Assembly (NCBI RefSeq): GCF_001275135.1
Contig: NZ_LFQU01000022.1
Span: 1-60,053, forward strand
DNA from: Xylanibacter rarus
GTDB lineage: Bacteria > Bacteroidota > Bacteroidia > Bacteroidales > Bacteroidaceae
Direction of reading: 5' to 3'
Length of the DNA: 60,053 nt
Below, in pieces: positions 36,661 to 51,384 of the stretch. The translations under genes and the position numbers were made by a program. How positions within the stretch are numbered: position 1 is the first letter of the stretch; every line of letters begins with the position of its first letter. The notes below the pieces were generated by a model that saw only the letters and a program-made list of their open reading frames with translations, ran no database searches and had not been told where the DNA came from.

Positions 36661-36713
36661 AGGAAGTAGGCAAATTGAATTTAGCTTCACAGATTGTTGG
36701 CTCTTTATTTATA

Positions 36714-36780
36714 GCAACAAGGCATTTGACTTTAACTCCTAGCCAACTTGTTGGCGATAACTCCTCTAACTCCTTTAACT
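36714..36780 (+). repeat. Left copy of a 67-bp inverted repeat around argC-argD
   Basis: GCAACAAGGCATTTGACTTT through AACTCCTTTAACT, with an inner GCCAACTTGTTGGC palindrome, ends nine bases before the argC start. Its reverse complement, with three or fewer differences, lies at 39544-39610, past argD. Confidence 0.85.
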
Positions 36781-36788
36781 ACTTTAAA

Positions 36789-37757
36789 ATGATAAAAATC
36801 GGAATACTTGGTGCCGCCGGATATACCGGCGGCGAACTTATAAGATTATTGATAAATCATCCGCAGGCAGAGATTGTGTTTGCCAACAGCGAGAGCAACG
36901 CAGGCAATCCTGTTACTGATGTTCACGAAGGACTTTACGGCGACACGGATATGTGCTTCACGTCGGATATGCCGTTTGATAAGGTGGATGTTGTGTTCTT
37001 CTGTTTCGGTCACGGCAAGAGCCGTCAGTTCCTTCAGGAACACGACATACCGGCCAACGTAAAGATAATAGACCTCGCGCAGGACTTCCGTCTGGCTGAG
37101 CCGGGCAACGACTATGTTTATGGCCTGCCAGAAATCAACCGCGACAAGATAGCCAAGGCCAATCATGTGGCTAACCCGGGATGCTTCGCAACCTGCATAC
37201 AGCTCGGTCTGTTGCCTGCCGCCGCCATGAAACTTATCAACGACGACGTGGCCGTTAATGCCATTACAGGCAGCACGGGTGCAGGACAGAAGCCTGGCGC
37301 GACAACGCATTTCAGCTGGCGCAACAACAACCTGAGCATCTACAAGGCGTTCAGTCATCAGCACGTGCCCGAGATTAGGCAGAGCCTCACGCAGGTGCAA
37401 GGCTCGCTCGATGCCGACATCGACTTCATCCCTTATCGCGGCGACTTCGCCCGCGGCATCTTCGCCACTTGCGTAGTGAAGACCGACGCTCAGGCTGATG
37501 AGATAATAGAGGGCTACAAGTCGTTCTACAAGGACGCCCCCTTCACTCATTATGTCGACAAGGCCATCGACCTGAAGCAGGTAGTAAACACCAACAAGTG
37601 CCTTGTTCACTGCGATAAATTCGGCAACAAGCTTCTCATCACTTCATGCATAGACAATCTCCTTAAAGGTGCCGTAGGTCAGGCCGTGCAGAACATGAAC
37701 ATCATGTTCGGCATTGACGAGACAGAAGGACTAAGATTAAAGCCGACGGCTTTTTAA
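36789..37757 (+). CDS. argC: N-acetyl(acyl)-gamma-glutamyl-phosphate reductase
   Basis: A 322-residue NADPH-dependent reductase, third step of arginine synthesis. N-terminal Rossmann motif GILGAAGYTGGELIRLL; catalytic Cys132 in ANPGCFATC; HFSWRNNNLSIYKAFSHQHV as in the short (type 2) ArgC family. The ATG at 36789 fits the conserved N-terminus; an in-frame TTG at 36675 would add 38 residues encoded by the repeat and is rejected. The stop codon lies inside the left 41-bp inverted repeat of the four-helix-bundle element. Confidence 0.95.
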   Translation: MIKIGILGAAGYTGGELIRLLINHPQAEIVFANSESNAGNPVTDVHEGLYGDTDMCFTSDMPFDKVDVVFFCFGHGKSRQFLQEHDIPANVKIIDLAQDFRLAEPGNDYVYGLPEINRDKIAKANHVANPGCFATCIQLGLLPAAAMKLINDDVAVNAITGSTGAGQKPGATTHFSWRNNNLSIYKAFSHQHVPEIRQSLTQVQGSLDADIDFIPYRGDFARGIFATCVVKTDAQADEIIEGYKSFYKDAPFTHYVDKAIDLKQVVNTNKCLVHCDKFGNKLLITSCIDNLLKGAVGQAVQNMNIMFGIDETEGLRLKPTAF

Positions 37758-38280
37758 GTGAAGAGTGAAGAACGAAGAGTGAAGAATTCAATTGTATAAT
37801 TTATATAATGGCATGGGAACTAAAATAATAAACGAATATAACCGCAGCGATTCACCTTTACATCGGAAAAGTTATGAATTTTCGATACGGATAGTCAATA
37901 TGGTGAAGTATATCAAATGTTCTGCCAAGGAATATGCACTTACCAATCAAGTGCTTCGCTCTGGTACGGCAATTGGCGCATTGGTGAGAGAAGCCGAATT
38001 CGCTCAAAGTTCTTCTGACTTCATAAATAAGCTGTCAGTAGCATTGAAAGAATGTAATGAAACTTTTTATTGGTTGAATCTTCTTAGAGATACAGATTCT
38101 ATCAATGACAAAGAAGCAGATAGCATGTTGCAAGACTGTAACGAACTGACTGCCATATTGGTGGCATCAGTAAAAACGGCAAAACAAAGAAATAATAAAT
38201 GATATGGTGAAAAAACGAGGTGAATCAATCATAACAAAGCAATTGAATTCTTCACTCTTCGTTCTTCACTCTTAACTTAA
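37754..38280. mobile_element. IVS-like element: 41-bp inverted repeats flanking a four-helix-bundle gene
   Basis: Bases 37754-37794 and 38240-38280 are inverted repeats 41 bp long with one mismatch (position 37760), containing GAAGAACGAAGAGTGAAG. They enclose only the four-helix-bundle gene. The left arm overlaps the argC stop codon and the right arm ends five bases before the argD start, so the element exactly fills the argC-argD gap. Family knowledge: four-helix-bundle proteins were first described in 23S rRNA intervening sequences, which also have terminal inverted repeats. Mobility here is inference. Confidence 0.8.
37813..38202 (+). CDS. Four-helix-bundle protein (23S rRNA IVS-protein family)
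   Basis: A 129-residue, all-helical protein with family marks: SYEFSIRIVNMVKYIKC (helix 1), KEYALTNQVLRSGTAIGALV (the LxRSGTSIGAN-like motif, about residues 41-60), REAEFAQSSSDFINKLSVAL and KECNETFYWLNLLRDTD. The family (S23/IVS proteins) forms pentameric bundles, and its function is unknown. It begins at the ATG at 37813; an in-frame TTG at 37792 is inside the repeat arm. AT-richer than argC and argD. It is the only gene inside the 41-bp inverted repeats. Confidence 0.9.
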   Translation: MGTKIINEYNRSDSPLHRKSYEFSIRIVNMVKYIKCSAKEYALTNQVLRSGTAIGALVREAEFAQSSSDFINKLSVALKECNETFYWLNLLRDTDSINDKEADSMLQDCNELTAILVASVKTAKQRNNK

Positions 38281-38285
38281 ATAAA

Positions 38286-39428
38286 ATGACTTTATTCGAC
38301 GTTTATCCATTATTCGACATTAACATAGTAAAAGGTCGTGGCTGTTCTGTTTGGGACGACAAGGGACAGGAGTATCTCGACCTTTACGGCGGTCATGCCG
38401 TTATAAGCATTGGCCACTGCCATCCGCATTATGTAGAGAAACTCACTGAGCAGCTCAATGCCCTCGGCTTCTACAGCAACTCGGTTGTTAACACGCTGCA
38501 GCGTCAGCTTGCCGAAAGACTTGGCAAGGCGTGCGGCTACGACGACTATCAGCTGTTCCTGATCAACAGCGGAGCCGAGGCTAACGAGAACGCGCTGAAG
38601 CTGGCTTCGTTTAAGACGGGACGCACGCGTGTGCTGTCTGCCTCAAAGGCGTTCCACGGACGCACCTCGCTTGCCGTTGAAGCGACAGACAATCCTAAGA
38701 TTATCGCGCCCATCAATGCCAACAATCACGTAACTTATCTGCCTCTTAACGACCTTGATGCGTGGGAGCACGAACTGGCTAAGGGCGATGTCTGCGCCTG
38801 CATCATTGAGTGCATACAGGGTGTGGGCGGCATAAAGCTTGCCACAGAGGAGTTTGCCAAGGGACTTCAGGCAGCATGCAAGAAATACGGTGCTGTGCTG
38901 ATATGCGACGAGATACAGTGTGGTTACGGCCGTTCGGGCAAGTTCTTTGCTCATCAGTGGCTCGGCATACGTCCCGATCTTATCACCGTGGCCAAAGGCA
39001 TAGGCAACGGCTTCCCCATGGGTGCCGTACTTATCTCGCCCGACTTCAAGCCTGAATACGGACAGCTCGGCACAACTTTTGGCGGTAACCATCTGGCATG
39101 TGCAGCAGCTCTTGCAGTGCTCGACGTTATTGAGAGCGAGCATCTTGTAGACAATGCGCATGAGGCAGGCGAATATCTCATGGCTAAGCTGAAAGAGTTA
39201 CAGACTACGGAGAAGCGCATCACCGACGTGCGTGGCCGTGGCCTCATGATAGGCATCGACCTCGACATACCTCACAAGGCGCTGCGTCAGAATCTTGTTT
39301 ACACCCAGCACTGCTTCACGGGCTGTGCCTCAACAAACATTCTCCGTCTTCTTCCGCCCCTGTGCTTCACCAAATCCATGGCCGACGATTTCATCGGACG
39401 TCTCAAAAAGGCGTTCGCCGAGATTTAG
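38286..39428 (+). CDS. argD: Acetylornithine/succinylornithine aminotransferase
   Basis: A 380-residue class III PLP aminotransferase that converts acyl-glutamate semialdehyde to acyl-ornithine with glutamate. Visible are INSGAEANENALKLASF (PLP phosphate region), AFHGRTSLAVEAT, CDEIQCGYGRSGKFFAHQ (Asp208 contacting the pyridine) and the Schiff-base Lys237 in TVAKGIGNGFPMGA. Length fits ArgD. It is separated from argC by the IVS-like element and followed by a strong terminator. Together with argC and argF' it covers the middle of the pathway. Confidence 0.95.
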   Translation: MTLFDVYPLFDINIVKGRGCSVWDDKGQEYLDLYGGHAVISIGHCHPHYVEKLTEQLNALGFYSNSVVNTLQRQLAERLGKACGYDDYQLFLINSGAEANENALKLASFKTGRTRVLSASKAFHGRTSLAVEATDNPKIIAPINANNHVTYLPLNDLDAWEHELAKGDVCACIIECIQGVGGIKLATEEFAKGLQAACKKYGAVLICDEIQCGYGRSGKFFAHQWLGIRPDLITVAKGIGNGFPMGAVLISPDFKPEYGQLGTTFGGNHLACAAALAVLDVIESEHLVDNAHEAGEYLMAKLKELQTTEKRITDVRGRGLMIGIDLDIPHKALRQNLVYTQHCFTGCASTNILRLLPPLCFTKSMADDFIGRLKKAFAEI

Positions 39429-39543: not shown

Positions 39544-39610
39544 AGTTAAAGGAGTTAGAGTAGTTATCGCCAACATGTTGGCTAGGAGTTAAAGTCAAAT
39601 GCCTTGTTGC
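39544..39610 (-). repeat. Right copy of the 67-bp inverted repeat around argC-argD
   Basis: Reverse complement of 36714-36780, including the GCCAACATGTTGGC palindrome. The pair brackets a 2.8-kb segment with argC, the IVS-like element and argD. Confidence 0.85.
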
Positions 39611-39690
39611 AATAAAGTAGTTCAGCAATTTGATTTTTCACTTTTCACTTTTCTTTTTTAACTTTCGTCAGAATACACATTGATTTACGA

Positions 39691-48863: not shown

Positions 48864-49097
48864 CCCAAATCTGGAGTTATGATTCTGCCTGTATTTTTGC
48901 CTTGTGTAGAGCTGATTTTCGTTTGATTTTTCGCAGGCACTTTTATAATTCATAATTAACAATTCATAATTAACAATTAGCTGGCGCTGAACTTCGTTTG
49001 CGCTTAGCACCTTGCGCCAAAAGAAACAAAAAGACGGATGGAGGCAGAAATACATAAAATAGACAAAACTATATGCGGTCTGATGATGATTTGGGTT
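48862..49097 (+). mobile_element. MITE with AACCCAAATC ends, copy A (236 bp)
   Basis: AACCCAAATC at 48862 and GATTTGGGTT at 49088-49097 are inverted ends. The element separates the HU tail (GTGTT) from GTTGACGGGCATTGG, which are adjacent in HU copy 1 at 44258, so the insertion is directly visible by comparison. An inner AATTCATAATTAACAATT repeat makes it longer than copy B. No gene inside. Confidence 0.85.
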
Positions 49098-51091: not shown

Positions 51092-51289
51092 AACCCAAAT
51101 CAGTCATTAGACCGCATATAGCTTTATCTATTTCGTGCATTCATGCTTTCAGTCCGTATTTTTGTTTCTATTGGCATCTTTTTGTTCGCTTTTTCTTGAC
51201 ATAGCCCGCTATGCCTGCGAAAAATCTAACGAAAATCCGCTCAATATAAAGCAAAAATCCCGGCTGAATACTAATGCCAGATTTGGGTT
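51092..51289 (-). mobile_element. MITE with AACCCAAATC ends, copy B (198 bp)
   Basis: Starts four bases after the GNAT stop. Its reverse complement aligns along its length with copy A: CCCAAATCTGG, GATTTTCGTT(A/T)GATTTTTCGC, AAACAAAAA, and CTATATGCGGTCT before the end. A third, solo AACCCAAATCAG end is at about 53370. Confidence 0.85.
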
Positions 51290-51384
51290 AAAAGTGAAAA
51301 GATAAAAGTGAAAAATCCATTAGCTATCTTGCTTTAATACAATGGCTAATGGATTCTTCACTTTTCACTTTTATCTTTTCACTT
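51290..51384. terminator. Large hairpin between convergent genes
   Basis: AAAAGTGAAAAGATAAAAGT and AATCCATTAGC (51290-51324) pair with GCTAATGGATT and ACTTTTATCTTTTCACTT (51345-51384). The hairpin ends one base before the murF stop and serves the converging GNAT and murF transcripts. Confidence 0.7.

Follow-up and report, generated by a model that had tools for sequence, protein, structure and literature searches.

The DNA analysed here, a stretch of 60,053 nucleotides from Xylanibacter rarus referred to below as the window, carries an arg cluster in which Pfam searches recovered argG, a PspC-domain gene, argC and argD as neighbours, as the original prediction had it. An S23 / 23S_rRNA_IVP four-helix-bundle gene (37813..38202, forward strand) lies between two co-oriented genes, argC upstream (36789..37757, forward; PF01118, PF22698) and argD downstream (38286..39428, forward; a class III aminotransferase, PF00202), outside any 23S rRNA gene. 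It is bracketed by a 5' arm (37753..37794, forward) and a 3' arm (38240..38281, reverse), which are 42 nt long, 98% complementary and 445 nt apart, the second reading as a colinear inverted copy of the first with one mismatch. The 5' arm is an array of degenerate heptamers (GTGAAGA twice, then ACGAAGA and again GTGAAGA) with ATTCAATTG at its inner end. The argC stop codon TAA (37755-37757) lies within this arm, and 4 nt separate the end of the right arm from the argD ATG (38286). An inverted repeat of 41 bp with one mismatch had been predicted around a single S23 gene, in an element filling the gap from the argC stop to the argD start; the coordinates bear out both points, with arms of 42 nt rather than 41 bp. 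Only one ORF of at least 60 aa is listed between the arms (37792-38202), measuring 136 aa from the TTG at 37792 or 129 aa from the ATG at 37813. The ORF matches Pfam PF05635 (23S_rRNA_IVP, E 3e-23), NCBIfam TIGR02436 (four helix bundle, E 1e-27) and the solved PDB chain 2rld (E 7e-31); by title, the solved S23 relative comprises five four-helix bundles. The Pfam search of the bracketed gene returned PF05635 only and no transposase of known family. The predicted fold of the transcript has an energy of -163.2 kcal/mol versus -109.3 (sd 5.9) in shuffled sequences, its complementary termini being able to form a stem; since none of 100 shuffles folds as low, the inverted repeat is not due to chance. 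A further inverted repeat of 73 nt, 96% complementary (36708-36780 and 39544-39616), encloses the whole argC-S23-argD stretch.

The arrangement is not peculiar to the window. We examined 72 S23 genes of the genus, namely the window gene, two paralogs in its own genome and 69 genes from relatives, a non-random set drawn from the 30 best loci (20 of them taken wider), 40 loci chosen from the matches listed and the two own-genome genes. An inverted repeat scoring at least 18 was present within 220 nt of 67/72 S23 genes versus 13/321 neighbouring ORFs of the same loci (Fisher p 8e-56, made too small by related rows), and the 13 controls above the threshold include one run of N and several ORFs that adjoin an S23 element and share its arm. 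For the most part the arms consist of arrays of a 7-bp unit, which varies among elements (e.g., AGTGAAG, AATTAAG, ATTGATA, CTGAGAA, ATTGACC, AGATAAC) and is matched in both arms of any one element. In the flanks of the 72 genes, autocorrelation computed without use of the inverted repeat reached 0.475 upstream and 0.436 downstream at lag 7 versus 0.26-0.32 at other lags, with raised values also at lags 14 and 21; lag 7 was best in 61/72 upstream and 59/72 downstream flanks. The 20 wide relative loci (239 kb), which were chosen for holding S23, contained 47 period-7 arrays including the S23 arms themselves, 12 arrays at lag 14 and five or fewer at any other lag tested. At the same threshold the window has one period-7 array, at 48945.

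The two arms of each element were compared in register for 58 of the 72 elements. Arm identity was 90% in register, a value somewhat inflated as the register is set by alignment, versus 68-70% when shifted by 7 in either direction, and the in-register position was best in 57/58. The two arms of an element are colinear copies. The median arm-pair score was 27 for real pairs versus 8.5 for arms mixed between elements; the own 3' arm was the single best partner of the 5' arm in only 31/72, because related elements share units. It could be argued that the arms are ordinary intergenic repeats, such as terminators or processing signals, that stand on both sides of S23 by chance; heptamer arrays do occur apart from S23 in these genomes, and some neighbour genes are bracketed too, as the 13/321 indicate. 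We regard this as highly improbable, given the excess at S23 genes (67/72), the unit matched between both arms, the recurrence across phyla and the joint presence or absence of arms and gene on plasmids described below. Continuous co-evolution of arms at fixed sites was also considered and rejected, on a mixed outcome: when real pairs were compared with arms mixed between orthologs, real pairs in genus g43 scored higher in 23 cases, equal in 29 and lower in 12, and the window trio was consistent (6/6). The arms are therefore read as born alike and then drifting.

The arm is also a dispersed repeat in its own genome. The element used as query gave 53 matches there, both strands counted, and by our own count arm copies occur at about 30 places outside the window, 40 of 59 candidates having been scored in this search. 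Among 20 arm stretches inspected most were single arms, many beginning TTTAAGTGAAG, and some lay in direct repeats. Inverted arm pairs without an S23 gene were found at three loci (L013, L020 and L012); at L013 the arms measure 50 nt, with 55 nt between them, and the flanking ORFs converge. The window itself has, at about 51286-51383, an inverted pair without an ORF, whose heptamers are of the type seen in the S23 arms, again between converging ORFs. ORF-less paired arms and single arms thus exist beside S23 elements. A protein search placed S23 at three loci of this genome, two of them additional to the window and each with its own inverted flanks, and PF05635 placed it at five.

Comparison with relatives indicates which gaps are filled. 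Among the 30 best ArgC loci of 398 genomes, S23 occupies the argC-argD gap only in the window and in G078; G089, outside these 30, also carries it there. In the 28 relatives without S23 at this position the gap is 2-28 nt in 14/28, and it contains a lone heptamer array in G015. Several relatives have other palindromic repeats or a small ORF: gaps of 125-363 nt with GC-rich palindromic repeats and no S23 occur in L257, L261, L267, L273 and L282, and in L275, L276 and L280 the gap contains a conserved small hydrophobic ORF of ~30 residues (MAKFDKDLFANTFIIGALLGGIIYIVIKVI in L276). Related S23 elements are found between argG and argC in G094 and after proC in G142 and G037. In G121 an S23 gene lies about 2.4 kb past proC, the argG-argC gap has a single arm, and the argC-argD gap (L074 2142-2262, reverse) holds an array of a ~8-bp unit, ATAACGTC-like, without an S23 gene. 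In G089 a DUF559 gene (PF04480, 1e-34), flanked by CCCCC-type repeats in inverted orientation, occupies the argG-argC gap (L064 5260-5920); this may be another cassette of one gene with repeats at its ends. No relative among the 30 best loci was both empty at the argC-argD site and close enough to the window copy. Sister species of genus g43 differ in the content of one tight gap: it is empty in G264, is filled by one S23 element in G253, G225 and G299, and in G237 is occupied by another S23 element whose arms are different. The window element is an insertion.

The strongest sign of mobility comes from near-identical cyanobacterial plasmids, some of which have an S23 element and some not. The element is present in Trichormus plasmid C and in two further records, and six records lack it while matching the query at 97.5-97.9% identity over 82% of its length, in two pieces; this comparison was made among 20 of 48 records listed, and the site was read in L295, L297 and L299. 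Relative to the empty plasmids, the filled ones have 423 bp of element and, in addition, a 5-bp direct repeat, GTAAT, which we read as a target duplication, the background rate of such a 5-bp match being 0.13%. At the same site, L296 has a truncated remnant and L298 an ORF-less inverted pair. Four further plasmid pairs with flank identities of 85-98.7% gave no clear target duplication, so that one is clear at only one of the five plasmid sites compared, which counts against a mobile element. In these pairs the element lies beside an integrase gene (L283 vs L300 and L304), within the 3' end of a gene on the plasmid, which receives its new stop codon from the left end of the element (L294 vs L302, L303 and L305), antisense between nrdB and nrdA (L288 vs L306), and between cas6 and cas4 (L291 vs L301). 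L301, with 98.7% identical flanks, has no S23 gene and is not a clean empty site because a different sequence occupies its gap. Homologous elements are gained or lost as arms plus gene. On type I-D CRISPR plasmids (L289 and L291), S23 genes stand between the cas6 and cas4 genes, a location that may bear on the listing of S23 near CRISPR systems in two earlier reports (PMC3936711; PMC10910872).

Taken together, the argC-argD gaps of relatives, either short or occupied by other sequence, the other arg-cluster sites, the ~30 dispersed arm places and the filled and empty plasmids uphold the proposal of an inserted, mobile IVS-like element. Neither do all relatives share the gene at this site, nor are the arms confined to it. 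That first reading did not include the 7-bp periodicity of the arms, their dispersal as a repeat in the genome, the occurrence of the layout in many phyla or the all-frame stops of many 5' arms.

With regard to orientation, the upstream neighbour was co-oriented for 71/71 genus S23 genes versus 99/132 controls, and both neighbours for 65/71 versus 80/132; the median distance from the upstream stop to the S23 start was 47 nt, about one arm. In the window's genus, S23 elements thus occupy gaps behind a co-oriented gene. Both neighbours were also co-oriented for 60/73 S23 genes in a set of loci from many phyla (124/191 controls), but the trend was reversed in g43 (21/29 versus 76/85), so that a sense bias was rejected as a general rule. 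These counts took in 71/72 genus, 73/80 many-phyla and 29/30 g43 loci. Antisense copies exist in 4/29 g43 loci and in plasmid loci L287 and L288. An explanation at the RNA level would have the arms form a stem in the operon mRNA that is cut by RNase III, the element spreading through a reverse-transcribed RNA copy into transcribed intercistronic sites. The sense-orientation bias in the genus, the strong predicted stem and a protein family common to rRNA IVSs agree with it, and intercistronic sites would presumably tolerate RNA cutting like rRNA loops do; the rRNA IVS of C. burnetii is reported to be cut by RNase III in vitro (PMC4990558). We nevertheless consider this explanation unlikely, in view of the antisense copies, the lack of sense bias in g43 and two further results. 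First, G-U and A-C mismatches between arms numbered 58 vs 51, 60 vs 75 and 16 vs 16 in three sets (70/72, 59/80 and 24/30 elements), with no G-U excess; nothing therefore shows that RNA pairing keeps the arms alike, and selection for such pairing was discarded on this null result in all three sets. Second, RVT_1 had no match in 9/23 near-complete S23-positive relatives, and a reverse transcriptase was rejected as constant partner on this result; at the window locus none was found among the ten proteins scanned (33.8-43.2 kb). No enzyme partner for S23 was found.

The reading of a mobile element is also supported by another property of the arms, that of stop codons. Repetition of a 7- or 8-bp unit brings a stop codon into every frame, which a unit of 6 or 9 bp does not. 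Of 70 genus elements, 59 have a 5' arm that closes all three sense frames, versus 31% expected from composition shuffles and 64% from period-keeping permutations. In the many-phyla set 25/57 5' arms (44%) closed all frames versus 14% of shuffles, and 9/57 closed none; the counts cover 70/72 genus and 57/80 many-phyla elements. The 3' arms exceeded shuffles as well (21/70 versus 11% in the genus, 10/57 versus 4% in many phyla); this and the incomplete closing outside the genus count against the reading. Forward TAACTGA arrays were also reported to hold stops in all frames (MacGregor, 2015; PMC4679880).

The S23 protein is under strong purifying selection. Window S23 and the same-site copy of G078 differ by dN 0.085 and dS 1.68 (dN/dS 0.05), and dN/dS was 0.03-0.13 in 17/22 S23 pairs; among the other five, two had saturated dS, one gave zero and two gave 0.21 and 0.28 at low dS. 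Pairs L072/L074 and L065/L066 stand in different contexts, and some g43 pairs were compared regardless of site. In 25 aligned family members the residues Q, R, E and E are invariant. The low dN/dS implies that the protein is needed, by the element or by the host. No catalytic domain was recognised in S23, which counts against a mobile element, and we know of no agreed function for S23 genes outside rRNA. Copies have persisted at their sites over dS >1 with purifying selection acting on them, which is compatible with a host role as well. A resident S23 protein might be a host regulator that binds heptamer arrays before genes and tunes translation or mRNA stability, its mobility being rare and incidental. 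Selection at a fixed site and the dispersed arm copies are in line with this, as is the proposal by MacGregor (2015; PMC4679880) that TAACTGA arrays ahead of start codons have an unknown repeat-binding protein, which might itself be the mobile element. Such a regulator seems to us quite improbable, however, as the gene is present or absent between near-identical plasmids, and as arrays are numerous in G010 (96 matches), where S23 had no match, and few in some S23-positive genomes. Array number per genome was not significantly related to S23 presence (p 0.12; 0.34 after Pfam reclassification), a test in which a reversed control pattern likewise matched many arrays. The protein search with window S23 undercounts, 5/12 of the genomes that it left unmatched passing the PF05635 cut-off.

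Flanking inverted arrays recur at S23 genes of many phyla, more weakly than in the genus. Within the phylum, PF05635 is present in 116/148 sampled genomes, and arms scoring at least 18 were found at 7/28 S23 genes versus 1/61 controls; 28/30 loci were scored, L143 and L147 having no central ORF and L142 being kept though its ORF was miscalled as 8 aa. The many-phyla set comprised the best 80 of 590 matched stretches, all of them scored, 50 being from Bacteroidota and 30 from others according to record titles. Inverted arms were present in 40/80 versus 16/426 controls at a score of at least 15, and in 26/80 versus 8/426 at a score of at least 18. The favoured period was 7, then 8, the array unit elsewhere being sometimes 8-bp rather than 7-bp; lag-7 autocorrelation was 0.39 and 0.38, and control flanks also gave some signal (0.33). 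Units elsewhere include AGTAGCTG in Flavobacterium, AGTGGTT in a Ruminococcus MAG and GGGACTA/T in a Planctomycetales MAG. Of 25 records of cyanobacterial plasmid S23 loci 12 were examined, several with clear arrays (e.g., GGGTGTA, AGGGAGT, CAGAATT/CAGGAGT); L287 and L290 had little or no inverted pairing, and arrays were present and unpaired in L289. A search of 50,697 phage records with one query protein gave no S23 match.

On balance we believe that the window locus is probably one copy of a very small mobile element, in which an S23/IVP gene lies between inverted 7-bp arrays and which was inserted in sense. S23 would bind the repeated units at both ends, hold the ends together and promote insertion with a short staggered cut, the cutting and joining chemistry coming from a host enzyme or from an unrecognised activity of the protein. 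As the unit is not a multiple of three, its stop codon would pass through all three frames, and many 5' arms could close the upstream ORF wherever they landed, making insertion beside or inside gene ends tolerable. In mRNA the arms may pair as a long stem, as in rRNA IVSs. The element might be mobilised as DNA or via an intermediate, and in the genus be retained at positions following another gene and read in sense. A wider proposal, that S23 elements are a distinct class of mobile element over many phyla and the source of much dispersed heptamer repeat, rRNA IVSs being copies that landed in 23S genes, is one that we advance tentatively and with less than even confidence. The same reserve applies to the attributes that such a class would have, namely a size of ~400-550 bp, a single four-helix-bundle protein of no known nuclease chemistry, and ends of element-specific inverted arrays, with 7- or 8-bp units, to which the protein would bind and in which stops in all frames are frequent.

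Intergenic heptamer arrays have been described before, namely TAACTGA (MacGregor, 2015; PMC4679880) and GGGAATC in Xanthomonas and GGGGA(C/T)T in Nostoc (Rehm, 2015; PMC4692102); like the arms studied here, they are intergenic arrays of 7-bp units. The second study also counted close convergent heptamer pairs, 70 in Xcc and 75 in Xac (Rehm, 2015; PMC4692102). According to these papers, among the long simple repeats of many bacterial genomes heptamers are the most abundant or are over-represented, and polymerase slippage was proposed as their origin (PMC4679880; PMC4692102). The main texts of both contain no mention of 'S23' or 'four helix'. Among the matches listed in our literature search, whose scope excluded most subscription journals, titles and the starts of abstracts indicated neither an S23-heptamer link nor S23 elements outside rRNA. 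Linking S23 to heptamers would offer a testable origin for both and make S23 a mobile, repeat-associated protein; if the link is true, the entry of IVSs into rRNA genes becomes a special case, and the layout may help to explain where heptamer repeats come from. A 7- or 8-bp unit with all-frame stops would be a simple reason for tolerated insertions among genes. To our knowledge, the S23 element would be among the smallest protein-encoding mobile elements.

Several known systems share features with this element. Avd of diversity-generating retroelements is a relative of the S23 fold, but the window element has no reverse transcriptase among ten neighbouring proteins. Like IS or MITE DNA transposons it has terminal inverted repeats, and unlike them it has no transposase of known family. 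The resemblance to 23S rRNA IVSs includes a PF05635 protein, a similar size and inverted-repeat ends able to form a long stem, whereas the window element lies between protein genes and its arms are heptamer arrays of a dispersed repeat. In REP/RAYT systems a single gene is bracketed by inverted copies of a short dispersed repeat, and ORF-less paired copies occur. The window gene is similarly bracketed by inverted copies of a dispersed repeat and ORF-less pairs exist; however, its product is a four-helix bundle with no HUH (Y1) nuclease match, and the repeats are heptamer arrays rather than single palindromes. The element thus fails a defining feature of each of the last two, working in parts like an IVS and, toward its dispersed repeat, like a REP/RAYT system.
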